A stretch of DNA of 22,910 nucleotides from a virus. Positions 2,702 through 22,893 of the stretch are shown here, piece by piece. The stretch's first letter is position 1. Every line of letters begins with the position of its first letter. Both the position numbers and the translations under genes were made by a program. A model generated the notes under the pieces. That model was not told where the DNA came from. It saw nothing but the letters and a program-made list of their open reading frames with translations, and did not search any database. The DNA lies in IMG/VR virus record IMGVR_UViG_3300030012_000072, positions 1 through 22,910 of that record. One strand, 5' to 3'.

Positions 2702-3610
2702 ATGGCTTATATCGGTAACATACCTGCAACGCAGTTTGCTTCGTTAGACTACCAAGACTTGACAGGTGTAACAGGTAGCCCGTCTAAGAGAGGGTTTACT
2801 TTAGATAACACCGTAGGTAGTGCAAACGATATTGAAGTGTTTGTAAACAACGTGCGGCAAGAACCGGGCGTTGCATACACTGTGTCTGGCACTACGCTTA
2901 CTATGACAGGTGATGTAGAAACTACGGATGATTTCTACGTGGTGTTCCAAGGTAAGTCAATAGGCACTGCAAGTCATCCTGCTGGTAATGCGTTGGAGGC
3001 TACCACAGGTACGTTTACTGGTGCGCTTACAGCTACTGATGGTACGTTTAGTGGTGGATTAACTGCTACAGCAGGAGCATCCACTAACGCACTTAGCTTA
3101 CAGTCTAGTAATTTTAAAATGACTGATTTAACTACCAATGCTTTCTATCGCACAGGTACATGGACACCTATTTTTTCCAGTGCTGGTGCTACAAGTGCAG
3201 ATGTAAGCGATATTTTTACTAGTTCTAGTTACACTACTCAATATGGACAATATGAAAGAATAGGTGATGTTGTTCATGCACATGCTCAACTTGCACTTGC
3301 TGACTCTGTTACTTATCAAAATGGCGGTGCAACTAACCAAGGAATATCAGTTGCAGGATTTCCATTTAATGTAAAAACAAATAGTAATTATTTTCCTATG
3401 AGCAGCCCTTTTTACTTTAACGTAGGAAGCGATGATGGTTGGGATAGATTTACTTGGGCAGGACATATGCTTCAAACTGCTAAAAAATCAATGACTGTAA
3501 TGTATGCAGCTAGTAATGGTCACAATATACGTGTAATAACTGACCATATTAAGAATGGAACGGCTACATCTATAATTTTTAATATTACTTACTGCACGGA
3601 TGACGCATAA
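2702..3610 (+). CDS. Tail fibre protein with YIG-type N-terminal module
   Basis: The protein has 302 residues. The N-terminal module (about 1-90; MAYIGNIPATQF, with a VFVNNVRQEPGVAYTV stretch) is a phage fibre attachment-type module; the same fold type appears twice in the fibre at 5169-6308. Residues about 95-130 (TGTFTGALTATDGTFSGGL) form a T/G-rich beta linker. The C-terminal half has no similarity I recognise and is rich in Y, W, N and S, as in a receptor-binding domain. Base composition becomes visibly more AT-rich from about 3110, matching the domain border. AAGGA precedes the start. The stop overlaps the next ATG (TAATG), coupling it to a chaperone-like gene. Confidence 0.75.
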   Translation: MAYIGNIPATQFASLDYQDLTGVTGSPSKRGFTLDNTVGSANDIEVFVNNVRQEPGVAYTVSGTTLTMTGDVETTDDFYVVFQGKSIGTASHPAGNALEATTGTFTGALTATDGTFSGGLTATAGASTNALSLQSSNFKMTDLTTNAFYRTGTWTPIFSSAGATSADVSDIFTSSSYTTQYGQYERIGDVVHAHAQLALADSVTYQNGGATNQGISVAGFPFNVKTNSNYFPMSSPFYFNVGSDDGWDRFTWAGHMLQTAKKSMTVMYAASNGHNIRVITDHIKNGTATSIIFNITYCTDDA

Positions 3611-5168: not shown

Positions 5169-6308
5169 ATGCCCTACATAGGTAAATCTCCAACAGGTTC
5201 AGGCGTACGACAACGCTACCACTACACTGCTACTGGCGGTGAAACTAGCTTGTCTGGCGCAGATGACAATAGCAAGACCCTCAAGTTTACGGATGGGGAA
5301 TATGTAGATGTATACCTCAACGGTGTCCTGCTTGTACAGGGTACTGACTATGGTGTTGGTACGGCTAATACAATTAGTAGCCTTGCTGCGTTGGCGGCTG
5401 GTGATATTGTAGAAGTCATTGTATATGATGTTTTTAACGTAGCTAAGATTAACAGCGAGGCAGTTCGTACTCGTCATTACTTTACTGCATCAGGCGGTGA
5501 AACATCTATTGGTACATCACAGATTGGTGGGCTGTCATTTGCAGCTAACGAAGAGATTGATGTGATGCTAAACGGTGTATCACTTGTAGCTGGTACAGAC
5601 TACAACACTAGTTCTGCAAACACAGTAGGTGGTCTCTCAGCATTGACTGCTGGGCAGGTGGTTGAGATTGTTATCTACGAAAAGTTTCAACTGGCTGATA
5701 CAGTAAGTAAAGCGGCAGGTGGTACGTTTAGTGGTCCTGTTACATTTTCTGGACAAACTACTTTTTCAGGAGATGTAGTAGGTGCTGTGCAAGAATACTT
5801 TCACGTTGACCTAACAACAGCCCAAACAGGTAACTCTGACAATACAACTGTTGTTGTTGATTTTGGCTCAAAAGGCACTGTGAAATATGACACTAAATCA
5901 AATGTAGACACTTCAAATGACGCTTATTTATTAGGTAGCAGTGATGGCGTTTACTTGATTAGTTTTAGTGTTGGTATAGTTTCTAACGCTATTTCAACAG
6001 AACAACTAATAGACGCTAGTGCATTTTTAGAAGTGGCAACAGACGGGTCAACTTTTGCGGCTTTGCATGGTTCAGGTTCACATGTTGAAGATAGCGCAGG
6101 TAACGAAACTGGTTCTGTTACTCGTAGCGGAACAGTTATTTATAAAGCAACAACAGCAACAACAAAGATTCGGGTAAGGACGCACGCAAATACAGTGTCA
6201 TCAGCTAATTACACGATAGCACATGAAGTGCAAAGTTTGATTTCAGCAACTCAATCTGCTTCTCAGGGTTCACGCTGTACATTTTTATCAATAGTGAGGA
6301 TTGCATAA
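5169..6308 (+). CDS. Tail fibre protein with tandem duplicated N-terminal modules
   Basis: The protein has 379 residues. MPYIGKSPTG is followed by two tandem modules of about 80 residues (about 13-92 and 99-176). Both carry (T)A(T/S)GGETS, DV(Y/M)LNGV.LV.GTDY, a LSAL/LAAL segment and VIVY/IVIY, so this is an internal duplication of the fibre attachment-type module also seen once in the gene at 2702. A G/T/F/S linker (about 184-203, GGTFSGPVTFSGQTTFSGDV) leads to a C-terminal domain (about 209-379) of likely trimeric beta structure. It begins directly after the previous stop and ends overlapping the next ATG (TAATG). This is a structural adsorption protein by family resemblance. Confidence 0.75.
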   Translation: MPYIGKSPTGSGVRQRYHYTATGGETSLSGADDNSKTLKFTDGEYVDVYLNGVLLVQGTDYGVGTANTISSLAALAAGDIVEVIVYDVFNVAKINSEAVRTRHYFTASGGETSIGTSQIGGLSFAANEEIDVMLNGVSLVAGTDYNTSSANTVGGLSALTAGQVVEIVIYEKFQLADTVSKAAGGTFSGPVTFSGQTTFSGDVVGAVQEYFHVDLTTAQTGNSDNTTVVVDFGSKGTVKYDTKSNVDTSNDAYLLGSSDGVYLISFSVGIVSNAISTEQLIDASAFLEVATDGSTFAALHGSGSHVEDSAGNETGSVTRSGTVIYKATTATTKIRVRTHANTVSSANYTIAHEVQSLISATQSASQGSRCTFLSIVRIA

Positions 6309-7737: not shown

Positions 7738-9156
7738 ATGAACGGCATGGATGAAAGAATATCAGATAACGACGTTGGCATCTTTCCGGGTGAAGACACC
7801 TTTACAGATACAGGCCGTATTAAAACACCAAAAACTATCAGCACAGATATCGAACTTGAAACTGAAGTTGGAACTCTTGCGGGTGCTGGTCTTCCTGCTG
7901 CAAAAACAACTAAGCAAGAAGTTCAAGATAATGAGTTGCTGGCGCAAGATTATAAGCTAGACCCCGGTGACCCTCTTGAGGCTAAGCAAGGAACAGCCAC
8001 TGAAACCGTCGCACCAGAGAAGCCTGACCCCTCTGTAGGTCAGATATCAGAGATAGATGACGTAAGCTCTGACATAGAAGATTTAGGTCCAGCAGAAGCG
8101 GCTAGGTTTGACCGCGTAGAAGACTACATCGACCCTGACGACGTACAAGGCACTTTATCTCCGGGTGCTACGGCAGTTGCTGCAACACAAGAACTTGACC
8201 AAAAAGCCACCATTCAGTATCAGCTAGGTCAACTCATGGGTTCCCTACAGTCTGGCGGTCCTATGCCACCTTGGGCATCCCCTGCAGTTCGCAAAGTGAA
8301 CGCCCTAATGCAACAACGAGGTATGGGTGCTTCTTCTATGGCTGCAGCCGCCATGACTCAAGCCCTGATGGAATCGGGTGTGCAGATTGCAGCAAAGGAC
8401 GCTGACAAGTATGCAGCTATCCAGCTAAAGAACCTTGACAACGAACAGCGAACAGTGTTGCAAAATGCAGCAGTTGTTGCTTCTATGGACAAAGCAAATC
8501 TCAACGCTCGTCTAAAAGCAGAGGTGACTAACGCACAAGCGTTTCTATCTATCGACCTGAAGAATCTTGACAACGAACAAAAGTCTGCTACATTAACATA
8601 TCAGGGATTACTTAAAGGTTTGTTTACAGATGCTGCAGAAGAGAACGCTCGTCAACAATTCAACGCCAAGAATGAGTTGCAGGTAGAAGAGTTTTTTGCT
8701 GAACTAGGCGCACAGGTAGACACAGCCAATGCTAACCGTGTTGCTTCTATGGAACAGTTCAATGTCTCAGAAGCAAACTCGATGACTCAGTTTAATGAGA
8801 CCTTAAACGATTCGCGGAACAAGTTCAATGCGAACATGCAGTTTGCTGTCGACCAATCAAACGCTACGTGGCGCAGGGAAGTCAACACGTCAAACACTGC
8901 ACTTGATAACGAAACAAATCGTATAAACGTACAGAACGAGTACAATGCTGTTCAGAACGCCCTGAATAATCTGTGGCAGGCATACCGTGACGAAGCTGCT
9001 TGGAACTTCCAAAAGGGTGAGAACGAACTGTCTCGTCAACACGATTTAGGCACGTTAGCTATGCAGTTTGCAAATAGTAACGAGTTATATGATAAACAGC
9101 AGAAAGATGACCTTGCAAGAATGGTCGGTAATTGGCTTGCAAATCTTGACGTATAG
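7738..9156 (+). CDS. Internal virion-type structural protein with 11-residue coiled repeats
   Basis: The protein has 472 residues. Residues 1-150 are acidic and disordered-looking (D/E/P/T rich). Residues 160-225 contain a GGPMPPWASPAVRKVNALM segment and an Ala/Met-rich helix. Residues 225-400 are long helical coiled coil: LKNLDNEQ occurs at 230-237 and 274-281, and FN or a variant recurs every 11 residues (308, 341, 352, 363, then SN at 374 and 385). There is no signal peptide or catalytic motif. It opens the block of probable ejection/internal core proteins. A phage structural role is likely; the exact position in the virion is unknown. Confidence 0.65.
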   Translation: MNGMDERISDNDVGIFPGEDTFTDTGRIKTPKTISTDIELETEVGTLAGAGLPAAKTTKQEVQDNELLAQDYKLDPGDPLEAKQGTATETVAPEKPDPSVGQISEIDDVSSDIEDLGPAEAARFDRVEDYIDPDDVQGTLSPGATAVAATQELDQKATIQYQLGQLMGSLQSGGPMPPWASPAVRKVNALMQQRGMGASSMAAAAMTQALMESGVQIAAKDADKYAAIQLKNLDNEQRTVLQNAAVVASMDKANLNARLKAEVTNAQAFLSIDLKNLDNEQKSATLTYQGLLKGLFTDAAEENARQQFNAKNELQVEEFFAELGAQVDTANANRVASMEQFNVSEANSMTQFNETLNDSRNKFNANMQFAVDQSNATWRREVNTSNTALDNETNRINVQNEYNAVQNALNNLWQAYRDEAAWNFQKGENELSRQHDLGTLAMQFANSNELYDKQQKDDLARMVGNWLANLDV

Positions 9157-9164
9157 GATTAGTA

Positions 9165-9641
9165 ATGGATTTATTTAAAGGTTTTAATTTGTTCAAAAGT
9201 CTTACGGGCATATTTGAAGATGGGAAGGATTTCTTCTTAGGACCTGAACTTTATGATGCTTTTGGAGATAAAACAAATGAGCGTAGTGGTGGTTTCCTCG
9301 ACACTGCCATCGACCTTGGTAAGGCAGGCTTCAAGGCATTTCAAGCGATGAACAGAGAAGGAGCCAACAACCCGTTTGAACGCACACAGTTCACACGACC
9401 TAACATAACAAGGGTCGGCGCACCACAAACCAGAGCAGCAGCCACAGAATCTCGTTGGAGACCGCAAAACCCATTATATCGTGAAGCAATTATTCGCCGT
9501 ATGAAACAGGTAAACTTCGAATCTAATCTACAGCGCATGACTCAAGACACAACGGTACGACCTACAACAAGACGCAAGGCTCCAACTCCTATTGAATCTG
9601 CGAGTATAAAACGAACAATGCCAGCTAAAAGATTAGATTGA
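9165..9641 (+). CDS. Basic virion-associated protein, unknown function
   Basis: The protein has 158 residues. An N-terminal amphipathic/aromatic segment (MDLFKGFNLFKSLTGIF) and a helical Ala/Lys stretch (about 45-65) lead to a strongly basic, Arg-rich C-terminal half (about 70-158, with repeated Thr-Arg and Arg-Arg) that could bind DNA or line an ejection channel. TAGGA precedes the ATG. It lies between two genes of the probable internal virion block. I do not recognise the family; its function is inferred from position and charge only. Confidence 0.6.
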   Translation: MDLFKGFNLFKSLTGIFEDGKDFFLGPELYDAFGDKTNERSGGFLDTAIDLGKAGFKAFQAMNREGANNPFERTQFTRPNITRVGAPQTRAAATESRWRPQNPLYREAIIRRMKQVNFESNLQRMTQDTTVRPTTRRKAPTPIESASIKRTMPAKRLD

Positions 9642-9651
9642 GGAGAACATC

Positions 9652-10182
9652 GTGGTACAAAAACGATTTGATGATTTTAACCGCGCACCACCCGGTCACT
9701 CCTTAACACAGGACAACTCAAGGTGGCCTTGGGGCAAACCGCCACAGCATACAAATCCTGACATTATATTTGACAAGTTAGTTGACACTCTCATGAAGCC
9801 TCGCAAGAAGCAGGAGATGATGAAGCTGCTTATAGTCGGTGTGTCTGTAGAGGTTATTGTAGAGGGTGTGTTGTTTTCGCAGTTTCAAAAAGGCACGTTC
9901 AATCCAGACGTAGGACTGTTGCTAAAAGGCCCCCTAGCTATTATGATTGCAGATATGGCAGAAGAAGAGGGCATACCTTATCGTCTGTTCGAAAACAGCG
10001 ACGAACTAGATAAGGAGGAGATGGACTCGGAAACATTCCTGCGTATGATGAAGCAGAACAATCCACAGATGTTTAACTACGTTCGCGAGAACTTAAACGC
10101 GACTATCCGTGCTGGTAATATGTCACGTTCGCAGGAACCTAACTTCATGACTATGGAGAAAGGAGAGAAAGATGCTGAGTAG
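9652..10182 (+). CDS. Conserved marine-phage structural-block protein, GTG start
   Basis: The protein has 176 residues and starts at GTG 9652 with AGGAG at 9641-9645. Residues 14-32 (PGHSLTQDNSRWPWGKPP) and the helical core MMKLLIVGVSVEVIVEGVLF (about 57-76) followed by NPDVGLLLKGPLAIMIADMAEEEGIP form a pattern I associate with a protein family encoded beside ejection/structural genes in marine phages. The hydrophobic segment at about 60-80 is not a clear membrane span. The C-terminus (MMKQNNPQMFNYV) is helical. Its 3' end overlaps the next gene by 11 nt. No enzymatic residues are recognised; the role is unknown. Confidence 0.65.
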   Translation: MVQKRFDDFNRAPPGHSLTQDNSRWPWGKPPQHTNPDIIFDKLVDTLMKPRKKQEMMKLLIVGVSVEVIVEGVLFSQFQKGTFNPDVGLLLKGPLAIMIADMAEEEGIPYRLFENSDELDKEEMDSETFLRMMKQNNPQMFNYVRENLNATIRAGNMSRSQEPNFMTMEKGEKDAE

Positions 10183-12124
10183 TAGTTTTCTACTAAATGT
10201 TGCCGCTGGTTACATGGAAGGCACGGCTGAACGCAGAAAGAACGAGCGTGAAGCAGAGTTGCAAGAACAGAAGGATAGGGCTAAACTTGATAGGGAGTTT
10301 GCGAGTGCTGTTGCAAGCGCAATCAATAGCAAAAACTTTCGGCCTGAGTCTCTCCCGTTGCTTTTTAAGACGTATAATAAACCGTATAACCCAAGTGAGT
10401 ATGCAGCGTTAACTAATTTAGCAGGAAAAGTTGCTACCACTGATAAATACGGCAATTACGATTTAAATCTTGTTCAAGAGTATGATTACGATACAATGTC
10501 TCCTTTTGAACGTTCTCAGATATTTTGGCAAAGCTGGGACAGGCAGCTTAGTTCTGAACAAGAGTATCAAAAAGCTTTAAAGTATTTTAAAAACGATAAG
10601 TCAGCTATGGAGCTATTGCAAAATCAAGTACGTAATAACGAGTATGAACTCCGTTTAGGAAATCAAAATAGACAGACCTCTGCAGGCAGAACAGGAGAGT
10701 TAAGTTACATAGATATAGGGGGTCAATACGGTTTTGCAGCACGTTTATTTAATGAGTTAGGTTTTAAAAACGTAAGTGAAGAAGCTAACAGGGCAATTGC
10801 AGAAAGTGCAATTCAGATAGACCCTGAAACTGAAGTTGCTATGCTTATGAATACTCGTCAAACGGGAGGTGCTTTAACACCTGTGCCTGTTGCAGTTGAT
10901 AAGAATACATACAACATATGGGGTGAGATGGCTGCTAATATCGGCTATGCAAATCAACAGCAAATGCTTTCAGACTTCAGCATAGATGCTGATTTTAGAA
11001 AAGAAGATGAGACAGTGGAGCAATTTGCTTACCGTCAAAATCAACTGTTACACAACGCAGCAAAGCTGCATACTGAGTATGGTAATTTTCTAGCTAACCC
11101 TGCTAATATGGACAGAGCAACGAGTGAGGCATTTCTTGCTCGTGTGAAGACGTTATCAAACGGCAATCGTGAAGATACAATTCGAATGATTTCACTCTTG
11201 ACGCCTAACCCTGTAAACGTTTTTAAAAAAACAAGACGATATGACTATGCAGAAAACCCATCAAGAAGTATTGAAACTGTTATATCAAATGCTAAGTATG
11301 TCGAACGTATTACAGGTCTGGAGCCAGACGATTTTAACGAAGGTATTAAAGCACAGAGAGAAGCTGTAGATTACCTAGACAGACTTATGGAACTGGAAGG
11401 GCAGATTAGTAATGAAGTTGGAACTGGTTGGGTTAGAAGTTCAGCACGATTACTACAGCAGTTTGGCATACAAATTCAACAGGGAACAACAACCTTGGGA
11501 AATCTGTTTGGAACTAACAGGGATTTTGGTGCTACTAAAGCAGGCACTACCCAATCAGACTTACAGGCGGTAATATTAAAGGTACGACCTAATATTAACC
11601 TGAATAATATATCTGAAGCAGAGGCCATCCGTCTAACCCTAGCTGCAAAGATGGCTCGTGCGGTTGACCCATCAGGTCGTCTTTCAAACCAAGACTTTGA
11701 AATACAGCTACGGCGTTTGGGTGATGGGGCCTTCACTACATACGGTGAAATCATAACAAAACTAAAATCAGTTCGAAATGAGTTCGCGCAAGACTTGCAA
11801 TACAAAAACAGATTGAAAACTGTTATGGATAATCAAGCTGCACTAACTCCGCAAGTAGCACGTACGTTAGAAGCATCCATGCGTCTTCGCAATATAGAGA
11901 GTAATATATTTGGTGCAAAGGGAAGAAACGCTGTAGTAGGTTCTGATTCTGCAGCAACAGATACACCATCACCAGAGCCTAACCCCCAGCCACAACAGCT
12001 TGCTCCTTACGGTAATACAGGATTTTACGGGCCTGATAAAGATGGTCGCTTTTACAATGACCCGCAAGGAACGCAGCCAGTTGACCCTAAAGAGTTTAGA
12101 AGAAAAACACAACAAGCAACTTAA
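10172..12124 (+). CDS. Probable internal virion / DNA-ejection protein (650 residues)
   Basis: AGGAG (10161-10165) 6 nt before the ATG fixes this start, which lies inside the end of the previous gene. The protein opens with a small hydrophobic/Ala segment, then a highly charged helix (about 18-42). The rest is mainly helical, with Q/N/R-rich stretches, and the last about 60 residues are Pro/Gly/Asp-rich and disordered. At about 493-510 it carries MARAVDPSGRLSNQDFE, a motif shared with the protein at 16629-17162. Large helical proteins in this position of podovirus-like genomes form the internal core ejected with the DNA. No lytic transglycosylase or peptidase motif is seen, so function is inference. 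Confidence 0.65.
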   Translation: MLSSSFLLNVAAGYMEGTAERRKNEREAELQEQKDRAKLDREFASAVASAINSKNFRPESLPLLFKTYNKPYNPSEYAALTNLAGKVATTDKYGNYDLNLVQEYDYDTMSPFERSQIFWQSWDRQLSSEQEYQKALKYFKNDKSAMELLQNQVRNNEYELRLGNQNRQTSAGRTGELSYIDIGGQYGFAARLFNELGFKNVSEEANRAIAESAIQIDPETEVAMLMNTRQTGGALTPVPVAVDKNTYNIWGEMAANIGYANQQQMLSDFSIDADFRKEDETVEQFAYRQNQLLHNAAKLHTEYGNFLANPANMDRATSEAFLARVKTLSNGNREDTIRMISLLTPNPVNVFKKTRRYDYAENPSRSIETVISNAKYVERITGLEPDDFNEGIKAQREAVDYLDRLMELEGQISNEVGTGWVRSSARLLQQFGIQIQQGTTTLGNLFGTNRDFGATKAGTTQSDLQAVILKVRPNINLNNISEAEAIRLTLAAKMARAVDPSGRLSNQDFEIQLRRLGDGAFTTYGEIITKLKSVRNEFAQDLQYKNRLKTVMDNQAALTPQVARTLEASMRLRNIESNIFGAKGRNAVVGSDSAATDTPSPEPNPQPQQLAPYGNTGFYGPDKDGRFYNDPQGTQPVDPKEFRRKTQQAT

Positions 12125-12136
12125 ATAAGGTGCATA

Positions 12137-15100
12137 ATGGTACAGCCTAATCCAATCGCTGGTTCAGAAGAGCCTACACGAACTCAACTTGCTAGTCAAA
12201 ATGACCCTGTAATGCTGGGACCTACTATCAAGGTAACACGCACGGGTGACATATCTGAAGAAGCTGCTGAAGACGTTCGTAAACAAGAAGAGGGTACAAC
12301 CTTCGAAGAGTACATGGCTGCTGCTTCTGACGAAGACTATATGGCTATGTCAGCTTTAAAAGCGCAGGCTGACGCTGGTGATGATGAAGCTTACATGCAG
12401 ATGATGGCTAAATTAGCCCCGTCAGCACAGCCGGGACAAGTTACAAAACCGTTCACACGGCAAGGGCAAACCTTTATTCCTGCTAATCTAGAAGACCCTT
12501 ATAAGGTTAATAAGGCGGAGTTGCTGGCTAAGAGTAAGCAGAAGCTAGATGGTTTCTTGATGGATAAAGTTCCTGATGCTAGAGTTCGTGAGGTTCTTGT
12601 AAATAACATAGCTTTAGGTGACTTTAGTGATGTTTTGGGAGAGCGTCTTGCAGAGGCAGGGAGAGGAACTTTTCAATTAGGCGCAACACTTGTTGGACAA
12701 TCACCTATCAACACTGCTTCCAAATATGGTTTCTTTGCATTTCAGGATTGGGTATCAGGTAAAACTGAAACTTTCGGTGCAGCATATAAATCATACGACG
12801 CACAAATACAGGCGGAGTCCCAGCAAAAGTTAAATAACCTTAATGCAGTTCTTTCTGGCCCCAGCTTAGGCATGGCTGTTAATCAAGGATTAGAGCGTCT
12901 TCTAAGAGAAAAGTACTCTGAAGAAGAAGTTCAAGAAATTTTATTTGATGAGGATGGTAACAAAAGACAGTTAATTTCTGATGAGGCTGCACAACAAACA
13001 CTCAACTACTCGTTTGACCAGATGAGCGAGATTCAAGAGTTTGGTGCGATTGCTATAGAGAACATGATAAATCTGGCAGGGTTTGGGGCTGGACGTGCTG
13101 CTGCTGGTAAAGAATCCTTGTCAAACGCTAAGAGACTGCAAAACAAGTTTGCCGACCTAACAGTAAAGGGAAAGAGAATAGGAGACGTAACAGACCCTAG
13201 AGAAGTTGTTCGTTTACTTGAAATTGACGGTAAAATTACAACGAACGTACTGTCTAAGAAAAGAACACGCATAAACATGAAGAACCTAGAAATAGGTTTG
13301 CGCGAAGAAAGACTAGACCGTAGTTTAGAGAGAGCATCACAAGAGGTGCAAGCTATGGGTGCTAAGTTAGAAGCGATGCGTCGTTATGGTATCGGAAGTT
13401 TTCCAAAACAAGACCCTGATTACATCTCTCTTTACAATCAATATCAAGCTGGTAAGAATCGCATCCTTCGTGCTAAGTTTCGTGGACGTACGATGCCGCT
13501 GCTTGCAGAGAATGTTGAAAACTCTTTGGTTGTATCTGCAGGACAATACTACGGTAGAGAACATTTACCGGGCTGGACAGGCATGGATGCTGACACATCT
13601 GAGATGGTTAGTGCGCTTATAATGAGTGTTGGTGGGTACAAACCTGTTAAAGCTGTAGGTAGTGCCGTAGGAAATCGTGTTCTTCGTCCTTTTGATTTAG
13701 ATACCTTATCAGTTAAGAATAGTCTAGGACGGGTGTTTGATTACGTTGCTTATGTAGGAACAGGGGGTTTTGGTCCTAAGAGACTTGATGCTGTTTCAAG
13801 CTTGTTTACAGACGATTCAATCCGCGCATTTGAAGCATCCACAGGAAGAAAACTAACAGCTTCAGAAATGAAGGGACTTCGTTACGCTACTCGTCTTATT
13901 CAGAACATGGATGATGACCAAAGAGAGGTTGTTATAAAGGCAGCAGACGATTATCTAGAACTTCAAGAGCGCATTGTGAGTAGCTTTCCTGTAGACATGC
14001 AGAAACAGGCTCAAGAGGCATTTGAGTTGAGTTTTGCAGAGGCAGCTTCATTGGGTCCATTGCAAGGTTTATCCAAACTAGCAACTGCAAAAGTAGATGC
14101 GCGGGACCTTAAAAACCTGAACGGTAGTCAGGTATTCGAAGTACAGCGTATGCAAGAACTACAAATAGAGCGTAGCGAATTGGCTTTAAATAACCTAGAG
14201 TCTATGGTAGGTAACTTACAAGATGAGGCTAGTAAACAGGCTGTATTGGATTTTGTGAACAACGGTAAGCAGGCCGTCATCAATCACAGGAATAAGTTGA
14301 TAGATGAAGCAGAACAAAACTTGACTCAGCTAGACGAACTACAGGCAGTTTTATTCGATGATATATCAGTAGAGTTACCTGAAGATGCGTTTGAAAATCT
14401 GTTCATGTTAAGAAAATCTGCTCACGAACGTTTAGGCAGAGCTTTTGATAATAAACAAGAAATAATAAAACTTCAAACAGATTTTGAAGAAGGCTTTGCT
14501 GCTCGTATGGATGTTATCGCTGGATTTAGAGGTACTCGTCAACATGAACAGATGCTTCGTGCAGAAACAGAGGCTTTTATTAACGTTCACATGGGAGTAT
14601 TTAAAGCAAGAGGTCGGGCTGCATACGAAGAGGTGGTTGCCTTTGCTGAAGGAAGAGACCCCATTGATGTTACTCCACTTGTAAAAACCATGTTAAACAA
14701 GATGGAAATAACAGATATCGAACGATTCTTTTCTCCCGGCGGCGAGTTTATGAACGGTAAGATTGGTGGTCATACTTTTACAGTTATGAACAACATGGTC
14801 AAGAGAGTAATCAACCCAGAAGAAATGACACAGATGCGAGGACTTCTAAAGAAATCAGATGAGTTTGCAGAAACACCTAACGTTGTTGATGGGCTTTCTG
14901 ATTTAGAAGTTGCACTTCGTATTGACGGTGCATCTTCAGGTCTAAATATTTTTGCACAAGCAAATCCATATGAAATAGATGTTATGCGTCGTGGTTTCAG
15001 GGACTACGCAGGACAGCTTAAAGACAAAAATCCAGCGTTATCCAGAGAGTACACACTTTTCGAAAGAAACTTAGATACTCTAATTCGTACTCAAGATGAG

Positions 15101-16648
15101 CCTATGTACGACATGCTTGTTGCGGCACGTAGAACGTATCAATCTGAGGTTGGTCAACGTATGCGTAACAAAGGCTTTCTATCGAAGCTGGATAAATCAC
15201 GAGATAATGACGAACTTGTCATCAGCCAAGGCGGTATGAAGTATAGATATGCAGACGTTACACCTACAAGTGTATTTGACCCTGTTACAAACAACATAGC
15301 CGCTGTTGCCGCAGGTGGTAAGCGGGGCGAGAAAGCAAAACAAGCTATTAGCACACAGCTTGACGAGATTATGATTGAGTTTGGCGAACGTACACCAGAC
15401 GGTAACGTGTTTGACCTAACAATGGAAGACAGTAACGCAAACTTCCAAGCGTTGTCTCGACTGTTGCGTGAACGTGCCTACGCTGATTGGGCAGCAGATG
15501 TTACAAAGAACATGCAACGTTCAACAGGCGATGTTAGAGCGAGAGGCTTACAGGAAAGACTAGGTGGCTATGACTTTGCACGTTCGCAAGGTTGGGAAGA
15601 TGTTCAAGATGCCTTTATGGTAGACGTGTTGGTGATTAATAAGAATGGTCAAAAAGTAAAAGAGCGTCGTAGTCTTGTGAACTTGGACGCCCTAGTTTCT
15701 CAGGACAATGATATTGAAAAGTTGATAGCACAAAACGCAGGAACTAAAGCTAAGTTTGATGAATTTAAAACAGAGGTGACTAATGCTGATAGTCAGTTTC
15801 GTAGACAGATACGAGACGATGTTGCAAAACAACAAAGTATATTTGATAGCTTGAGAGATGTGTTTGATACGGACCCAGATAGCTTCTACACAAAGTTCGT
15901 AGAGATGGGTACAGAAGAAAACATGATGGCTATAAGAGACTTATCTGTTAATGCTCTTATGAGAGGTGGCACTGCAAAGTCTCGTGAAGAGGCGGTTGCA
16001 ATGTTTGACACAGCAACACGCTCTCTTGTTAGTCGTGCTTTATTAAACAAGTCTCGTGTAAGTCCCGTAGCTGGAAGCACAGTATCTGCTGTTAAGAGTG
16101 ATAGAAGGTTTGTTAGGAATATAGCAGACCCTAACGTCATGCTACAAACAATAGAGGACAATCGTCAAGTATTAACAAGCGTTCTTGGTGACGAACATAT
16201 CTCATATTTAGAAGATATAGCAGACTTTATGAACAAGTCTGAACCTTCGTTAACATATAATTTTAATGGTGTTGTCAGGGGATACGGAACAAACGAAGCA
16301 CTCAGTCGTGTATATAACATGGCTCGTGGTATGGTCAGTCCATTATATGTTACATCTGAATTTGCTGTAAGACTTGCATCTCAGGCAAATGTACAGATAC
16401 TTCAGCTTGCAGGAGAAAACAGACAGGCTGCACGTATCATTACAAACATGATGAATTACCCTGAACTTGTAACACGTAAGGATATGGAGTACCTTAACGA
16501 CACGTTTAAAGAATTTGTAATAACTGAAATAACAAGAACGGGTGCTGACCCGACGATATTCTTCCCAAGTGACGAAGAAGAAGAAGAAGAAAAACCACAA
16601 CAAACTACTGAGAATGAGGATATTTACGATGAAGCGTACTCCGCGTAA
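12137..16648 (+). CDS. Giant internal virion / ejection-type protein (1503 residues)
   Basis: This is the largest gene of the window. The N-terminal about 130 residues are acidic and disordered-looking (EEAAEDVRKQEEGTTFEEY). The remainder is long and helical, with charged E/K/R/Q stretches and a few small hydrophobic segments (about 310-325, IENMINLAGFGAGRAAAG). Near the end is LSRVYNMARGMVSPLY (1389-1404), and the C-terminus carries an acidic run, D1479 E1480-1485. Size, composition and position after the 650-residue protein match the large ejected inner-core proteins of podoviruses, which help DNA cross the cell envelope. No confident lysozyme or protease motif is visible. The gene overlaps the next by 20 nt. 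Confidence 0.65.
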   Translation: MVQPNPIAGSEEPTRTQLASQNDPVMLGPTIKVTRTGDISEEAAEDVRKQEEGTTFEEYMAAASDEDYMAMSALKAQADAGDDEAYMQMMAKLAPSAQPGQVTKPFTRQGQTFIPANLEDPYKVNKAELLAKSKQKLDGFLMDKVPDARVREVLVNNIALGDFSDVLGERLAEAGRGTFQLGATLVGQSPINTASKYGFFAFQDWVSGKTETFGAAYKSYDAQIQAESQQKLNNLNAVLSGPSLGMAVNQGLERLLREKYSEEEVQEILFDEDGNKRQLISDEAAQQTLNYSFDQMSEIQEFGAIAIENMINLAGFGAGRAAAGKESLSNAKRLQNKFADLTVKGKRIGDVTDPREVVRLLEIDGKITTNVLSKKRTRINMKNLEIGLREERLDRSLERASQEVQAMGAKLEAMRRYGIGSFPKQDPDYISLYNQYQAGKNRILRAKFRGRTMPLLAENVENSLVVSAGQYYGREHLPGWTGMDADTSEMVSALIMSVGGYKPVKAVGSAVGNRVLRPFDLDTLSVKNSLGRVFDYVAYVGTGGFGPKRLDAVSSLFTDDSIRAFEASTGRKLTASEMKGLRYATRLIQNMDDDQREVVIKAADDYLELQERIVSSFPVDMQKQAQEAFELSFAEAASLGPLQGLSKLATAKVDARDLKNLNGSQVFEVQRMQELQIERSELALNNLESMVGNLQDEASKQAVLDFVNNGKQAVINHRNKLIDEAEQNLTQLDELQAVLFDDISVELPEDAFENLFMLRKSAHERLGRAFDNKQEIIKLQTDFEEGFAARMDVIAGFRGTRQHEQMLRAETEAFINVHMGVFKARGRAAYEEVVAFAEGRDPIDVTPLVKTMLNKMEITDIERFFSPGGEFMNGKIGGHTFTVMNNMVKRVINPEEMTQMRGLLKKSDEFAETPNVVDGLSDLEVALRIDGASSGLNIFAQANPYEIDVMRRGFRDYAGQLKDKNPALSREYTLFERNLDTLIRTQDEPMYDMLVAARRTYQSEVGQRMRNKGFLSKLDKSRDNDELVISQGGMKYRYADVTPTSVFDPVTNNIAAVAAGGKRGEKAKQAISTQLDEIMIEFGERTPDGNVFDLTMEDSNANFQALSRLLRERAYADWAADVTKNMQRSTGDVRARGLQERLGGYDFARSQGWEDVQDAFMVDVLVINKNGQKVKERRSLVNLDALVSQDNDIEKLIAQNAGTKAKFDEFKTEVTNADSQFRRQIRDDVAKQQSIFDSLRDVFDTDPDSFYTKFVEMGTEENMMAIRDLSVNALMRGGTAKSREEAVAMFDTATRSLVSRALLNKSRVSPVAGSTVSAVKSDRRFVRNIADPNVMLQTIEDNRQVLTSVLGDEHISYLEDIADFMNKSEPSLTYNFNGVVRGYGTNEALSRVYNMARGMVSPLYVTSEFAVRLASQANVQILQLAGENRQAARIITNMMNYPELVTRKDMEYLNDTFKEFVITEITRTGADPTIFFPSDEEEEEEKPQQTTENEDIYDEAYSA
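16574..16591 (+). repeat. (GAA)6 trinucleotide repeat coding for Glu run
   Basis: Six consecutive GAA codons encode Glu 1480-1485 of the 1503-residue protein, immediately followed by AAA. Such tracts can change length by slippage in multiples of three without breaking the frame. Confidence 0.85.
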
Positions 16649-17162
16649 AGCTTACGCCTACGGTTCTACAGTCAGGAGTCCTATGAGTCCTGATACAAAG
16701 ATGATGTCAGATATGAACCCTATGGCTGACCGCACACAAAAACAAACTGTGATTAAACAAACCATGCCTAAACCAATGGGTATGCCAAAGCCACAGGAAC
16801 GTAAGTCTAAGAACGTTGAAGTTGCTGCAGGTATGCCGAAGATGGCAGGTGGTGGCGAGTTGAAAGAGCCTAACAATCCCGGCCTGAAAAAGCTACCAGA
16901 AAAGGTACGCAATAGAATGGGCTATAAAGCCTACGGCGGTAAAATGAAGAAGATGGCAGAAGGCGGTAAGCTAATGGAAACACGCCAAGAGATAATAGAC
17001 CGTATTTCTAAAAAAGATACGAGCTTGTCTAAGTCTCAACTAAGTCGAGCATTTAACATGGCTAGGGGTATGGACCCTGTTGGAAGACTATCAAACCAAG
17101 ATATTGAACGTGTTATAAAAGCACTAAAAGACCCATCTAACAGACGCTCATCACGAGATTAA
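16629..17162 (+). CDS. Small basic Met/Gly/Lys-rich virion-block protein
   Basis: The ATG at 16629 was chosen because GAGGA (16616-16620) lies 8 nt upstream and MKRTPRKAYAYG is a sensible basic N-terminus; a longer ORF reaching 16542 is the Lys-coding shadow of the GAA tract. The product has 177 residues. Residues 1-55 are basic and Pro/Met-rich, 60-110 contain repeated small motifs (PKMAGGGELK, YGGKMKKMAEGGKLM), and 130-177 are a charged helix with FNMARGMDPVGRLSNQD. This last motif is shared with the 650- and 1503-residue proteins. It is translationally coupled to the preceding gene (20-nt overlap). A core or DNA-binding accessory protein is plausible; function is unknown. Confidence 0.65.
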   Translation: MKRTPRKAYAYGSTVRSPMSPDTKMMSDMNPMADRTQKQTVIKQTMPKPMGMPKPQERKSKNVEVAAGMPKMAGGGELKEPNNPGLKKLPEKVRNRMGYKAYGGKMKKMAEGGKLMETRQEIIDRISKKDTSLSKSQLSRAFNMARGMDPVGRLSNQDIERVIKALKDPSNRRSSRD

Positions 17163-17166
17163 AAAA

Positions 17167-17388
17167 TTAAACGTACCTACTAGAGTTTGCCATAACGTCA
17201 TCTCCTATCTCTCGTAGATAACGAACGAGACTAGCAACCTTAAACGTTCCCTCATACTCTGGAAAACCACGTTCCATCGTCTTCACAAACTCCTCTGGGT
17301 CTACCGCCTGATAGTCCAGTTCGATATGCCCATCAGTGTTCATAACACATGTCAGGTTAAATAACTCAGCTTTAGCTTTCTTTGCCAT
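17167..17388 (-). CDS. Small hypothetical protein, last gene of the - strand operon
   Basis: The chosen start (MAKKAKAELFNL) gives 73 residues; AAGG lies about 9 nt upstream and the start overlaps the preceding gene by 17 nt. An upstream in-frame GTG (17457) would lengthen it but has no support. The sequence is a small alpha/beta type with HIELDYQAVDPEEF and a C-terminal helix; no Cys pairs, membrane span or catalytic motif. I do not recognise the family. It ends only 4 bp from the stop of the convergent + strand gene, and no strong - strand terminator is visible beyond it. Confidence 0.55.
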   Translation of the reverse strand: MAKKAKAELFNLTCVMNTDGHIELDYQAVDPEEFVKTMERGFPEYEGTFKVASLVRYLREIGDDVMANSSRYV

Positions 17389-17791
17389 CTTTGTATGCCT
17401 TAAATACGTCGGTGGAAAACAGTTTCTGAAGGCTGAGTAAATACATACGAGCCGCACCGTTATCCCCCCCGGATACGGTGCGTTTTTCGTCTAGGTTGTC
17501 TATGATAAGTTTTAGGGATGGGACATCGAACACGAGCGTTGCAAAAGTCTCGTCGCCAATACAGAGGTTGTGGAACCAGTAGTCGGACTTGGTTGCGTTG
17601 ATACCACTAGGTTTACCATAGCACTCGTATTCAATGGCTATGTTGCCAGTTCGAACCCACATGTCTCGCTCTGACTTGACCTCTATCTTCTTATCCTGCA
17701 GCATGTCAGCAACACGCTTCTCACGTACCTTTCCGTACTGCAGGTCTATGTCAAACTTCTTACGGTCTGCTACACACGGTTCCATACTCAT
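17372..17791 (-). CDS. Putative PD-(D/E)XK-like nuclease-fold protein
   Basis: The protein has 139 residues. The N-terminal half shows FDIDLQYGKVRE (E24), then KIEVKSER (E37-V-K39) and TGNIAIEYECYGKPSGI (about 48-64), an arrangement resembling the core of PD-(D/E)XK nucleases such as resolvase- or restriction-like phage proteins. KSDYW (68-72) is typical of the same phage family as I recall it. The C-terminal SGGDNGAARMYLLSLQKL completes a compact domain. The start overlaps the stop of the 42-residue gene (ATGA). Cleavage activity is inference; the active site is not fully identifiable. A G7 run and a + strand terminator hairpin lie inside the gene. Confidence 0.5.
   Translation of the reverse strand: MSMEPCVADRKKFDIDLQYGKVREKRVADMLQDKKIEVKSERDMWVRTGNIAIEYECYGKPSGINATKSDYWFHNLCIGDETFATLVFDVPSLKLIIDNLDEKRTVSGGDNGAARMYLLSLQKLFSTDVFKAYKDGKES
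17453..17487 (+). terminator. Strong rho-independent terminator for + strand late transcripts
   Basis: Left arm 17453-17465 (CGCACCG, bulged T17460, TATCC), a five-C loop 17466-17470 and right arm 17471-17482 (GGATACGGTGCG) form a 12-bp GC-rich stem, followed directly by TTTTT (17483-17487). The T-run is only on the + strand, so it should end late transcription about 300 bp past the last late gene, inside the opposing - strand gene. Confidence 0.75.
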
Positions 17792-17916: not shown

Positions 17917-18202
17917 GCTCTCCCCCTATGCCTCTACCAAGACCACCAAAGTATTGTGGCCTTTTACGTGCAACCTCAAACGTGGCTACGGTTATTACTA
18001 TACCAGCTATCAGGATACTATGCAATAGCGCACTTACACCAAATACGGTGATAGACCCAATATACATTGAAAAGATGATACACCACATCCACGCAAGAAG
18101 TTGCATAACAAGATGTCTTGTATTCATATCAGGTATGTTTCGCAAAGGATTGTGTTTACTATTCATAATCACATTCCAACTGTCATGTACAAATTTACTC
18201 AT
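17909..18202 (-). CDS. Small two-span membrane protein, unknown function
   Basis: The ATG at 18202 overlaps the NrdJ stop by one base (TGATG); an in-frame GTG 3 nt earlier is an alternative. The product has 97 residues. An amphipathic N-terminus (HDSWNVIMNSKHNPLRNIPD) is followed by two hydrophobic segments at about 31-49 and 53-75, then a basic Gly-rich tail (RKRPQYFGGLGRGIGG). I recall similar proteins in marine phages but no assigned function. It probably sits in the host inner membrane. It could be a holin-like or superinfection-related protein, but its place in the replication operon argues against a late lysis role. No catalytic motif is seen. Confidence 0.65.
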   Translation of the reverse strand: MSKFVHDSWNVIMNSKHNPLRNIPDMNTRHLVMQLLAWMWCIIFSMYIGSITVFGVSALLHSILIAGIVITVATFEVARKRPQYFGGLGRGIGGEHE

Positions 18203-20130
18203 CACGCAGCACTCAAATCAACAACTTCACAAACACCAGCCGTACAAGCAAGTTCACGGGAACCACTAGTATTGTCTTCTTTCTCGAACAGACTTAGCTG
18301 ATTCCAATCTAGCTTCACGTCTTTGTACGTTTGTTGCCACTCAAGATAGTCTTCCTTTTCGATATCCTGATAAGGAGCCTGCTGATAACTGTGGTCACTA
18401 TGCGGTAAGAACGATACCCCGGAGGCTACATCGAAGTTCTCATACACCCATGCTCCTACATCCATCCACTCGTTTTCTTTGACAGATATAGTTACAGATG
18501 GCTTGTGTTCGCACCAGTGCAGCGCATACGTCTTCCACAGTTCTAGTTGTTCTATGGCTGTCATCTGAGTTCGCGTTACGGCGTTGCTGGGAGACCTCAT
18601 AGCAAACGAGAACACAGTGGTTGAATCTGGTTTCATAACACATCGTTCGTGGGGTACACCTGCCTCAATCATAAACTGAGTTAGCGGGTCTTTGTTATCG
18701 CCGCGAACTGTCCTGATGTAGTAATCGTTGTGCCGTGCATGAATACCACTAGCGGTATCGGTTAGTTGTGACACAGTACCCGACGGCTTTACACAGGTGA
18801 TTGCAGCGGATACTGGGATTCCAAGCATGTTCGCATACTTGTCGTTCGTCTTGACGGACTCTTCCCGCATCTCCTGTAACCACCTTTTGCTGTCTACGTT
18901 CTTTGACAGAACTGCGTGGTCCATAATACCAGTTAAGGATACGCCCAACAAGCGTTCTTCCTCTGTGTTCTTTTTCCATACGCTCCTCAAATACTTGAAG
19001 TCTGTTAGGGTGGACTGCAGGGTTCCTAGTATAGTTGCTATGCGAACCTTACGCTTGAGGCTGGCTAGGTCATCTGTTTCGCGAACCATCACCTCTGATA
19101 GGTTACAGAACTGATACGGACGTAGGATTATCTCAGAGCATGGGTTAGTACCCCACATATGTCCTGTCTCTCGCCGTCCATTCTGAGCAACCTGTTTGTC
19201 AGCAGCCTCACGGTTGAACATACCACGTTCACCAGATTTACTATCGTACAACGCAAGCCATTCACGCATAAACGTACCCATCTCAGGCTTGCCTTTGTAG
19301 GCTACAGAGTTGTTAGCCAAGGCACGTTGGCCCTCGTTCTCCCACCACTGACCAGACTTAGCATGTGCCATTTGGTCGTCGTTCAAGTTTGACAGACTAA
19401 TCAAAGCTGACCGTCTGACTCCCCCCACAACTACAATCTCACCAATCTTACACATCAAGTCGTGACACTCGATAGGAAACAGTCTGCGTCCCTGTGCTTT
19501 CTTGAAGGTCTCCACAGTAAAGCGGAACAGGTCATCAAGGGGCTGCGGCCCAGATGCTCTACCACCCATTGTCTTGAGACGCTCACCAGCAGCACGAACT
19601 TGTGACATATCCCACGTAGGAATCTGCCCTGCATACAGTAACGCAATCAGTTCGCGAAGTGACTTGGCCCAACCGGGCTTCGAATCGCCAACCTTGATTA
19701 CAGTATCTGTATCGTGCATAGCATCACTAACCACAGGCAGCTTGTCTACATTCTCACGCTCTACTGAAAACCCAACACCTGTACCACACATAAGAATATA
19801 CATACACTCATCGAATGAGCGTGGACTATCTACGGGTATATACGAGCAGTTGTATCCTGAGATGTTGTCACGAGCAAGAGCAGGGCCAGATGTCATCATA
19901 GCTCTCATGGACGGCATCACTTCGAGGTTTAGTATAGCCTCGCGAATCTCCTCTACGTCCTTCTTAGGCAGTTCATAGTTGTGCTTCCCGCGAACCTGAT
20001 TGACCATAAAGTCAACATAACGGTCAACCGTCTCGTGCCAATCCTCACGACGTTGCTCGGAATCCAGCCAACGTGCATATCGTGACTTGTGGATAAATTG
20101 TTGATAGGTGGTTGGTAACATATTACTCAT
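18202..20130 (-). CDS. nrdJ: Adenosylcobalamin-dependent (class II) ribonucleoside-triphosphate reductase, monomeric
   Basis: The product has 642 residues from the ATG at 20130, chosen because AAGGA and a GA-rich tract lie just upstream; a start at 20169 would add 13 residues inside the preceding gene. Key elements of monomeric class II RNR are present: NCSY (C95), GTGVGFSVE (116-124), GGVRRSALISLSN (236-248), NPCSE (N329, C331, E333; the thiyl-radical Cys and its partners), FCNLSE (C342, redox partner of C95), KPSGT (448-452), and a C-terminal CTAGVC pair (C629, C634) that passes electrons to the active site. It converts ribonucleotides to deoxynucleotides for phage DNA synthesis and needs host or environmental vitamin B12. 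It is oxygen-independent, and no subunit B is needed. Confidence 0.95.
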   Translation of the reverse strand: MSNMLPTTYQQFIHKSRYARWLDSEQRREDWHETVDRYVDFMVNQVRGKHNYELPKKDVEEIREAILNLEVMPSMRAMMTSGPALARDNISGYNCSYIPVDSPRSFDECMYILMCGTGVGFSVERENVDKLPVVSDAMHDTDTVIKVGDSKPGWAKSLRELIALLYAGQIPTWDMSQVRAAGERLKTMGGRASGPQPLDDLFRFTVETFKKAQGRRLFPIECHDLMCKIGEIVVVGGVRRSALISLSNLNDDQMAHAKSGQWWENEGQRALANNSVAYKGKPEMGTFMREWLALYDSKSGERGMFNREAADKQVAQNGRRETGHMWGTNPCSEIILRPYQFCNLSEVMVRETDDLASLKRKVRIATILGTLQSTLTDFKYLRSVWKKNTEEERLLGVSLTGIMDHAVLSKNVDSKRWLQEMREESVKTNDKYANMLGIPVSAAITCVKPSGTVSQLTDTASGIHARHNDYYIRTVRGDNKDPLTQFMIEAGVPHERCVMKPDSTTVFSFAMRSPSNAVTRTQMTAIEQLELWKTYALHWCEHKPSVTISVKENEWMDVGAWVYENFDVASGVSFLPHSDHSYQQAPYQDIEKEDYLEWQQTYKDVKLDWNQLSLFEKEDNTSGSRELACTAGVCEVVDLSAA

Positions 20131-20281
20131 TGTCTTCTCTTTCCTTTGGATAATATACGTGTACTTCACTGTTACAATTAGAACAGTGTAGGTTGGTTAC
20201 CATGCTATATTCAGAATCTTCTTCTGATATATCGTGGTCTCCGCCCCAAATTAATTCTGTATTGCAATGCCAACAGTTCAT
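20123..20281 (-). CDS. 52-residue double-CxxC zinc-ribbon protein
   Basis: This is a short ORF between the DUF3310 gene and nrdJ. Its ATG overlaps the upstream stop (ATGA) and its end overlaps the nrdJ start by 8 nt. CWHC (C3, C6) and CSNC (C33, C36) are 26 residues apart, which fits a zinc ribbon; the segment between is acidic with WGGDH and MVTNLH, and the tail is charged. Its existence is well supported by tiling and the four cysteines. Function is unknown. Tight coupling to nrdJ invites the idea of a redox or regulatory partner of the reductase, but zinc-bound cysteines would not usually act as thiol donors. Confidence 0.75.
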   Translation of the reverse strand: MNCWHCNTELIWGGDHDISEEDSEYSMVTNLHCSNCNSEVHVYYPKEREDNE

Positions 20282-21737: not shown

Positions 21738-22006
21738 ACAGTAACGCCCATCCTCAAGTTGTGATTGATTTGTTGAAATTCTTCTTCGATACGAATTATA
21801 TCCCTAGCTTCCGTGTCGGAAACAAGATAACCAGTGTCGCTATAGTTATTGCGTAGGGTGAGGGGCAGCGATGTTTCCAATCCGCGAACATGCACGGTTG
21901 CTGGGTTACCACCCCTCTCCTCATGTGATTCCACATAAACACACCGCAAGGCTGGATTCATAGTCAGCAACTTACGTGGGTATGTCTCTGTGTATAGAAG
22001 GGGCAT
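21611..22006 (-). CDS. Hypothetical 131-residue protein
   Basis: It starts within the stop of the nuclease gene (TGATG), the usual junction type of this operon, which supports its reality. It contains VYVESHEERGGNPATVHVRGLETSLPL (beta-rich, about 24-50), a helical central part (TEARDIIRIEEEFQQINHNL), and a Leu-rich C-terminal helix region (about 98-131). No motif I recognise; no membrane span. The last 127 nt are also open in the endonuclease I frame, so one of the two readings there may be non-functional unless the segment codes twice. Confidence 0.6.
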   Translation of the reverse strand: MPLLYTETYPRKLLTMNPALRCVYVESHEERGGNPATVHVRGLETSLPLTLRNNYSDTGYLVSDTEARDIIRIEEEFQQINHNLRMGVTVCLPTMLLSEELNYLEKHTPKVEQYLLKRLSLAKTSFPLLEL

Positions 22007-22893
22007 CAGATGCTCCTGTTAACTATCTTGGTGTACCAAGCTTTCGGTGGGAACTTAGCCTTAGATGTAATCTTATCGTGATACTCTGCTTTCTTCCAGC
22101 AGTGTTCTTTAAACGAACAGAAAGTACAGGTCTTCGGCATCAGTTTGTTACCTGTGTAAATCTTCTCGCCTTTAACGGTGTAGGATTCGTCAACTGCCTC
22201 GAAAGGTATCTTGAACTTATCATCCTTGAGAAGGCTCTCCACGCGGCTCCTAGCGTCAGCAATGTACCTTTTACGGTCCTCTTCTTGGTCGGCAGGTGCT
22301 TCTACAAAATCCCACTCACCGGACGATTTGTTGATAGCTATCCAACCACCAAACGGCATGTCCTGTGACTCTGAATATAGAAAGCCCTGCATGATGTAAC
22401 CAAAGGGGTCATCCTCTTTGATTACCTCATAGCCGCCACGGTTCGAAAACTTGTTGTCAAAAGACCACGGGCTAGTTGACTTAACATCCCATACTTTATC
22501 CTGACCATCGTTTAAGATAATGTCTAAAGTTCCCTTAACATCTGTGTCGCCTAGTTTTAAACTGCACTGTCGCTGAGTATCAACAACGGTAACTCCCGCA
22601 GCTTTCATAACAAACACTGCAATCGCTTCAACAAGGTCACCCATGAGGAAACGCATAATATCATTATACGCAACCTCTTGGGTGTGGCCTTTTTTTTCCA
22701 TCTTCTGCTGACACAGGGGACGGCCCAGACCTGACATACGAATACGGTAGCCACCACGAGATGACAACTGTTTTCGCAAGGAGTCCTTACAGTCTTCTCC
22801 GAACTGTTCTATCAGGTCGTCAAAGCGGGAAGAGTCAATCTCCCCCCGCCCTGCTTTCTTCAAGAAGTCCTGTACTTCCAGAAGGGCTATCAT
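22006..22893 (-). CDS. Cas4/AddB-like PD-(D/E)XK exonuclease with Fe-S cluster cysteines
   Basis: The protein has 295 residues. Nuclease core: GDLVEA (E89), GTLD (D124), WDVKS (D136, K138) and QGFLY (Q169, Y173), corresponding to the PD-(D/E)XK motifs including the RecB-type Q-x3-Y. Cys61 plus C256-x2-C259-x5-C265 near the C-terminus match the four-cysteine 4Fe-4S arrangement of Cas4/AddB-type nucleases. In phages such proteins act as DNA exonucleases in recombination or host DNA degradation. The start ATG overlaps a TGA in the frame of six upstream codons (22910-22890), suggesting another gene of the same operon just outside the window. Confidence 0.85.
   Translation of the reverse strand: MIALLEVQDFLKKAGRGEIDSSRFDDLIEQFGEDCKDSLRKQLSSRGGYRIRMSGLGRPLCQQKMEKKGHTQEVAYNDIMRFLMGDLVEAIAVFVMKAAGVTVVDTQRQCSLKLGDTDVKGTLDIILNDGQDKVWDVKSTSPWSFDNKFSNRGGYEVIKEDDPFGYIMQGFLYSESQDMPFGGWIAINKSSGEWDFVEAPADQEEDRKRYIADARSRVESLLKDDKFKIPFEAVDESYTVKGEKIYTGNKLMPKTCTFCSFKEHCWKKAEYHDKITSKAKFPPKAWYTKIVNRSI

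Follow-up and report, generated by a model that had tools for sequence, protein, structure and literature searches.

Conserved signatures of two large virion-block proteins and their hybrid in the small protein p177 of an uncultured marine phage

The virion block and its likeness to known systems

The window, i.e. the whole stretch of DNA analysed here, is a 22.9-kb viral record (IMG/VR IMGVR_UViG_3300030012_000072, 22,910 nucleotides). It carries a block of six genes on the + strand, positions 7738–17162, which encode proteins of 472, 158, 176, 650, 1503 and 177 aa. The block ends where replication genes of the opposite strand start. The genes of concern here are as follows.

7738..9156, + strand: p472, the most conserved protein of the block and a candidate partner (58–76% identity, 36 relatives)
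9652..10182, + strand: p176, a conserved small protein in the position of T7 gp14 and a candidate partner (52–68% identity, 37 relatives)
10172..12124, + strand: p650, a large virion-block protein predicted to be helical; open reading frame in the position of the gp15-type tunnel protein of T7
12137..16648, + strand: p1503, the largest virion-block protein; open reading frame in the position of the T7 gp16-type protein
16629..17162, + strand: p177, a small basic accessory protein; open reading frame, preceded by GAGG-N9-ATG, with a 20-nt overlap between its start and the p1503 stop

The ejection genes of phage T7 are adjacent and encode 196, 747 and 1318 aa, and ejection proteins have published size ranges of ~200, 430–980 and 600–1340 aa, adjacent in that order (PMC8954989). 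p176, p650 and p1503 show the same order with 176, 650 and 1503 aa, the sizes of p176 and p1503 being slightly outside the T7-type ranges. As with the T7-type gp14-gp15-gp16 set and its P22/SP6 counterparts, the proteins close the virion block, are large and are predicted to be mostly helical where modelled. Unlike the T7-type set, an extra small gene (p177) follows the gene in the gp16 position.

Distant matches to p176 were found in the cultured podoviruses HTVC033P (E-value = 2e-8), HTVC104P, CRP-212, RHph_I3_11 and phiM6. The gene order in podoviruses with a p176 match is a small gene, the p176 homologue, a 365–935 aa gene and a 1077–1638 aa gene, and the operon order around p650 is the same in phiM6, RHph_I3_11, CRP-212 and HTVC033P. 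A distant p176 homologue and the block gene order are thus common to the window and the HMO-2011-type marine podoviruses CRP-212 and HTVC033P (PMC9038755), and CRP-212 likewise has reversed replication genes with an adjoining ribonucleotide reductase. A difference is that the p650 profile finds no significant similarity in the CRP-212 and HTVC033P proteins at the p650 and p1503 positions. In the window, the ribonucleotide reductase is a 655 aa protein near the virion-block end (18202–20169, − strand; phrog_367, E-value = 4e-191); the enzyme is similarly placed in CRP-212 and phiM6, and is annotated as B12-dependent in phiM6. Also on the − strand, 22006–22893 encodes a 295 aa protein of the Cas4-domain exonuclease family phrog_1990 (E-value = 7e-28). 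Two proteins of the tail-fibre region, 2702–3610 and 5169–6308, start similarly (MAYIGNIPA and MPYIGKSPT), and the second displays an internal repeat, RYHYTATGGETSL and RHYFTASGGETSI.

Because gene order and sizes are as in T7 and the cultured podoviruses, p176-p650-p1503 are read as a putative ejection-protein set. Position and size are the grounds for this reading, for which neither the sequence nor the fold tests brought confirmation. PDB chain profiles and Pfam gave no gp15 or gp16 sequence similarity for p650 or p1503: in the profile search of PDB chains p650 had no hit and the C-terminal part of p1503 no significant hit, and Pfam showed no transglycosylase domain. Pfam and PHROGs yielded nothing significant for the block proteins of the window, and single family members gave scattered PHROG matches (best E-value = 0.001) with no consistent direction. 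A 706–715 aa frame in six of ten relatives has a weak P22-type portal match below the curated cut-off; the T7-type portal family gave no match, and the control was likewise without one, which makes this negative uninformative. A fold search with the p650 and p1503 models found nothing significant in PDB or BFVD; for the p650 model (pLDDT 78), the best Foldseek E-value against PDB was 0.6, with no T7 entry among the matches listed. gp15 changes shape on ejection, and the negative fold comparison of p650 with gp15 is therefore weak.

The signatures of p650 and p1503

A preliminary description of this DNA proposed a single short motif in three successive virion-block proteins. The three genes are indeed successive, and the quoted peptides are present in the translations at p650 residues 493–510 (nt 11648–11701), p1503 residues 1389–1402 (nt 16301–16342) and p177 residues 143–160 (nt 17055–17108), with LSRAFNMARGMDP at p177 residues 138–150. 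Family profiles, however, resolve the proposed motif into two separate family signatures and a hybrid of them in p177. The two signatures are:

11615..11719, + strand: p650 signature hairpin, residues 482–516, ending LTLAAKMARAVDPSGRLSNQDFEIQLRRL (conservation and AlphaFold helix-loop-helix)
16289..16384, + strand: p1503 signature hairpin, residues 1385–1416, TNEALSRVYNMARGMVSPLYVTSEFAVRLASQ (conservation, alignment and AlphaFold helix-loop-helix)

A blastp search gave 41 relatives of p650. The family was sampled from 39 IMG/VR relatives and from 45 contigs recruited with the DNA form of DPxGRLSNQDIE. All 45 contigs encode p650 homologues (E-value = 4e-20 or better), thus the string belongs to the p650 family. 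MARA-DP-GRLSNQD is the segment with the highest conservation in the family. In a profile of 50 p650 proteins the top 20-mer, MARAVDPSGRLSNQDFEIQL, reaches 3.69 bits per residue compared with a median of 1.12. A further alignment, of 47 proteins, has 14 invariant columns, and all but one of them (13) fall within p650 residues 491–516. The conservation of the signature is somewhat inflated, since some relatives were recruited with patterns taken from the motif. The signature is situated about three quarters along proteins of ~570–820 aa, to which p650 itself conforms, and is usually followed by 110–260 residues (~140 in p650). p177 does not belong to this family: it carries the second half of the signature only, is 177 aa long and is otherwise without similarity to p650. 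A diverged form, ARAVDNNGRLSNDDF, is present in L003 and L004, two relatives found via p177.

Homologues of p1503 longer than 900 aa are found at 76 loci. These proteins were recruited independently of their own motif, and the p1503 figures are free of the bias noted above. The segment with the highest conservation is SRAFN-ARGMVSP--YV, and the top 20-mer, LSRVYNMARGMVSPLYVTSE, gives 3.11 bits compared with a median of 1.48 (profile of 42 p1503 proteins). GRLSNQD was not found anywhere in the 1503 aa family. A significant match to either signature is lacking in 50,697 records of cultured phages, although p650 relatives are common among IMG/VR contigs. The middle gene of three cultured podoviruses displays a degenerate hairpin (NKVSKNDL, GRDMSDKDV and, in CRP-212, GNGFSNKDF).

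AlphaFold models suggest that both signatures are helix-turn-helix hairpins, with moderate confidence for p650 and low confidence for p1503. The p650 model (mean pLDDT 77.9) has a helix at 482–498, a loop at 499–505 and a helix at 506–515, with pLDDT ~78–91. The model of the C-terminal 314 residues of p1503 (mean pLDDT 80.4) has a helix at 1385–1396, a loop at 1397–1401 and a helix at 1402–1416, with pLDDT ~58–66. The latter values are below most of the domain, which would fit a hairpin that folds on a partner. In both models the second helix begins after a serine, S505 in p650 and S1401 in p1503.

The GRLSNQD segment resembles a calcium-binding EF-hand or dockerin-like loop in its spacing, with D499, S501, G502, L504, S505 and D508 at loop positions 3, 5, 6, 8, 9 and 12, and two p177 homologues (in L060 and L062) do end in a canonical loop. 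D508 at position 12 and both helices are present in p650, but an invariant alanine (A497) occupies position 1, where the key ligand would be. Pfam gave no EF-hand match up to an E-value of 1, and PDB only a weak match to centrin (E-value = 0.5). A calcium-binding loop is thus highly improbable.

The preliminary description also offered a packaging or proteolytic processing signal, which could be suggested by the shortness and strong conservation of the string and by its presence in a second protein. The p650 copy, however, is an interior element within a predicted helical hairpin of pLDDT ~78–91, with ~140 residues after it and usually 110–260 beyond it in the family, which disfavours processing. 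The string is C-terminal in p177, and its GRLSNQD half is missing from p1503. Those window proteins that were scanned include no recognisable protease. We consider a signal of this kind very unlikely.

Pairwise BLAST of p650 with p1503 yields no match at the motif, and profile comparison (hhalign) is not significant, with P = 0.036 for the motif regions and 0.08–0.29 otherwise. At the level of sequence the two families show no demonstrable relationship at their signatures. With these P values (0.036–0.29), and with p177 matching both profiles, there is no single three-protein motif. There is a weak resemblance of the first helices in the same register. Under the p1503 matrix the p650 motif has a median rank of 2 among ~650 positions, and in the reverse scan the p1503 motif has a median rank of 9 among ~1484, the family members not being independent in these ranks. 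The loops differ: the shared arginine and the capping serine are 9 residues apart in p650 and 4 in p1503.

The two proteins reassort between genomes: in 31 pairs of genomes the identities of p650 and of p1503 are more than 40 percentage points apart. L031 and L064 have p1503 proteins that are 94% identical and p650 proteins that are 38% identical; L048 and L064 show 82% for p650 and 29% for p1503. L046 and L066 are a further discordant pair. The signatures are kept across both families, whose proteins are elsewhere ~24–30% identical. Median identity to the window proteins is ~64% for p472, ~59% for p176, 32% for p650 (24–55% across relatives) and 27% for p1503.

The hybrid tail of p177 and its insertion

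p177 consists of module A (YAYGS-VRSPM), module B (KLP-VRN-MGYKAYGGK) and a tail, C. The features of the tail are:

16947..17167, + strand: 221-nt insertion that encodes tail C (p177 residues 107–177, 71 residues) and a new stop; it replaces 5 nt of L003
17040..17132, + strand: putative hybrid hairpin, p177 residues 138–168, LSRAFNMARGMDPVGRLSNQDIERVIKALKD, which matches the p650 and p1503 profiles
17168..17183, + strand: vestige of the ancestral C-terminus, TAAACGTACCTACTAG, from the 3′ flank alignment (KRTY-stop in L003)

The sequence of the p177 C-terminus shows the first half of the p1503 signature joined to the second half of the p650 signature. Pairwise BLAST gives a 31-residue match to p650 (E-value = 5e-7) and a marginal 11-residue match to p1503 (E-value = 0.009). 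Compared with the family profiles, the tail aligns to 32 columns of p650 (P = 3.8e-14) and to 14 columns of p1503 (P = 1.3e-7; whole profile P = 6.5e-6). Under the p1503-signature matrix the p177 segment scores 29.1 bits, and in 809,035 14-mers this segment and one genuine p1503 fragment were the only ones above 18 bits. None of the 29 distinct p650 motif segments exceeds −1 bit, and the best of 100,000 segments drawn from the p650 columns has 6.2 bits. On these matrix and profile scores SRAFN-ARGM of p177 is p1503-like and DP-GRLSNQDIE is p650-like. GRLSNQD was not found in any 177-type homologue examined, and other open reading frames of up to 420 aa in the fetched loci contain no p650-type hairpin, except for fragments of p650 genes. 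Absence from the homologues of two of the three proteins had been named in advance as what would refute a common motif, and GRLSNQD is missing both in the 1503 family and in the 177-type homologues examined.

The signatures could have independent structural roles, with the p177 tail produced by a joining of two pieces or by convergence of the short SRAFN-ARGM half, and with no common partner. Profile comparison shows no significant relationship between the two large-protein signatures, local capping can explain both hairpins (S505-N-Q-D508 in p650, S1401-P1402 in p1503), and the generic string SGR-S--D-E is found in unrelated PDB proteins. Internal packing alone, however, would rarely keep 13 of 14 invariant residues in a 26-residue stretch of a 650-residue protein that is ~20% identical in the remainder, and the match of the p177 N-terminal half to p1503 is far beyond chance. 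We regard independent roles as unlikely.

The flanking alignments show the tail to be a recent and sharp insertion. The 5′ flank (window 16644–16946) corresponds to L003 8001–8303 with 96.0% identity and the 3′ flank (window 17168–17791) to L003 8309–8932 with 97.3% identity (blastn). The ancestral gene end is now directly 3′ of the new p177 stop. The tail is missing in 30 of 30 relatives, which have a shorter gene (open frames of 74–124 aa) at the p177 position. GC3 of the insertion is 0.31, near that of p650 (0.30) and p1503 (0.32), and 0.45 in the remainder of p177. A single metagenomic contig carries the tail, which is unique among the records searched, from which very close records were possibly omitted. 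An assembly chimera is unlikely, since both flanks derive from the same relative, L003, at 96–97% identity.

Strongly differing codons had been taken to indicate an old or constrained resemblance. The codons do differ between p177 and p650 (43 of 72 nt identical, 41.3 expected, P = 0.33) and less so between p177 and p1503 (28 of 39, 23.5 expected, P = 0.03). With no excess of DNA identity to p650 and only a slight one to p1503, a recent duplication of either of these genes within the window was rejected. Great age does not hold for p177, its tail being a recent insertion.

Within the window the insertion has no other significant match. No donor of the tail was found in IMG/VR, where a few pattern hits led to no related protein, or among cultured phages, and in the records of ten relatives the sole match to the tail, where any exists, is the p650 gene. 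Host mimicry was also rejected; the motif in bacterial genomes amounts to five stretches, and only one of them reads in frame, within 73 aa at the end of a contig. No RNA family was found around the insertion.

Several further features of this gene region were observed. Modules A and B occur in either order, A-B in the window and B-A in L031, L035–L037 and others. Across p177 homologues, which include L003:7950-8321 and L036:8662-8943, module B reads LP-VRN-MGYMA-GGK. The homologues at L060:7817-8086 and L062:6808-7077 end in the canonical EF-hand-like loop DLDKDGKMSGYE (GDLDKDGKMSGYEKKRQ in L060), which is another kind of C-terminal addition in the same place as the p177 tail. At window 16644, five bases before the p1503 stop, 94–97% homology to L003, L004 and L005 begins, and upstream of it p1503 and p650 show only 25–32% protein identity to L003 and L004. 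This is a sharp recombination boundary at the p1503 gene end.

The tail could be a functionless passenger, i.e. a foreign p650-type fragment captured at the GGK-rich end of a fast-evolving gene, with the p1503 resemblance coming from the donor. It is a recent insertion in a single lineage, and the end of this gene varies among relatives, with the modules in both orders, so that additions are evidently tolerated. On the other side, the open frame, which ends in a stop of its own, preserves the signature residues, and a plain p650 fragment fails to account for the N-terminal half, where p650 segments score at most −1 bit under the p1503 matrix compared with 29.1 for the tail. A passenger is possible, though less likely than not.

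A possible docking site for the hairpins

A shared binding site, as first suggested, still provides the best reading of the conserved, constant and predicted hairpins, no longer as a single motif. Tentatively, the hairpins may serve to dock the proteins to a conserved partner within an internal or ejection complex, with p177 having gained a hybrid hairpin for the same site. p650 and p1503 would be seated by their hairpins on a single conserved partner or else on a pair of equivalent sites. Candidate partners are p176, p472 or the portal; with median identities of ~59% and ~64%, p176 and p472 are conserved enough for a fixed partner. The hairpins stay constant while p650 and p1503 diverge and reassort, as expected for a standard interface. 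The weak first-helix resemblance and the p177 hybrid are the only direct evidence that the site may be common.

With its hybrid hairpin p177 would be able to take this site too, either adding a component to the core or acting as a competing plug. The tail would have come from an unsampled phage gene and would have entered by recombination at the repetitive GGK-rich gene end. A more specific proposal, which we judge possible though less than probable, is that an accessory protein captured a hybrid docking hairpin and so occupies or bridges a common site of the ejection proteins, the signatures being an interchangeable joint for swaps.

A similar arrangement is known in phage PhiM1, where two virion proteins have a 46-residue helix-turn-helix motif in common and bind one and the same capsid pocket through it (PMC11440229). 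The likeness to its alpha-claw and alpha-paw is that a motif is present in two proteins of one virion, one of which is little more than the motif, at equivalent sites. The PhiM1 decoration proteins differ in that they bind the capsid exterior and are alike throughout the motif, whereas p650, p1503 and p177 are likely internal and p177 is a hybrid.

Interfaces of ejection proteins are hard to find by sequence because these proteins diverge rapidly. In the collections searched, the p650 and p1503 families occur only in uncultured marine phages; each displays one nearly invariant hairpin, and evolution has reused both signatures in a third protein, p177. If the p650 and p1503 signatures mark a common docking site, they would serve as a searchable annotation signature. 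Such a site, if true, would give residues to test and a compatibility rule for mosaic ejection complexes.
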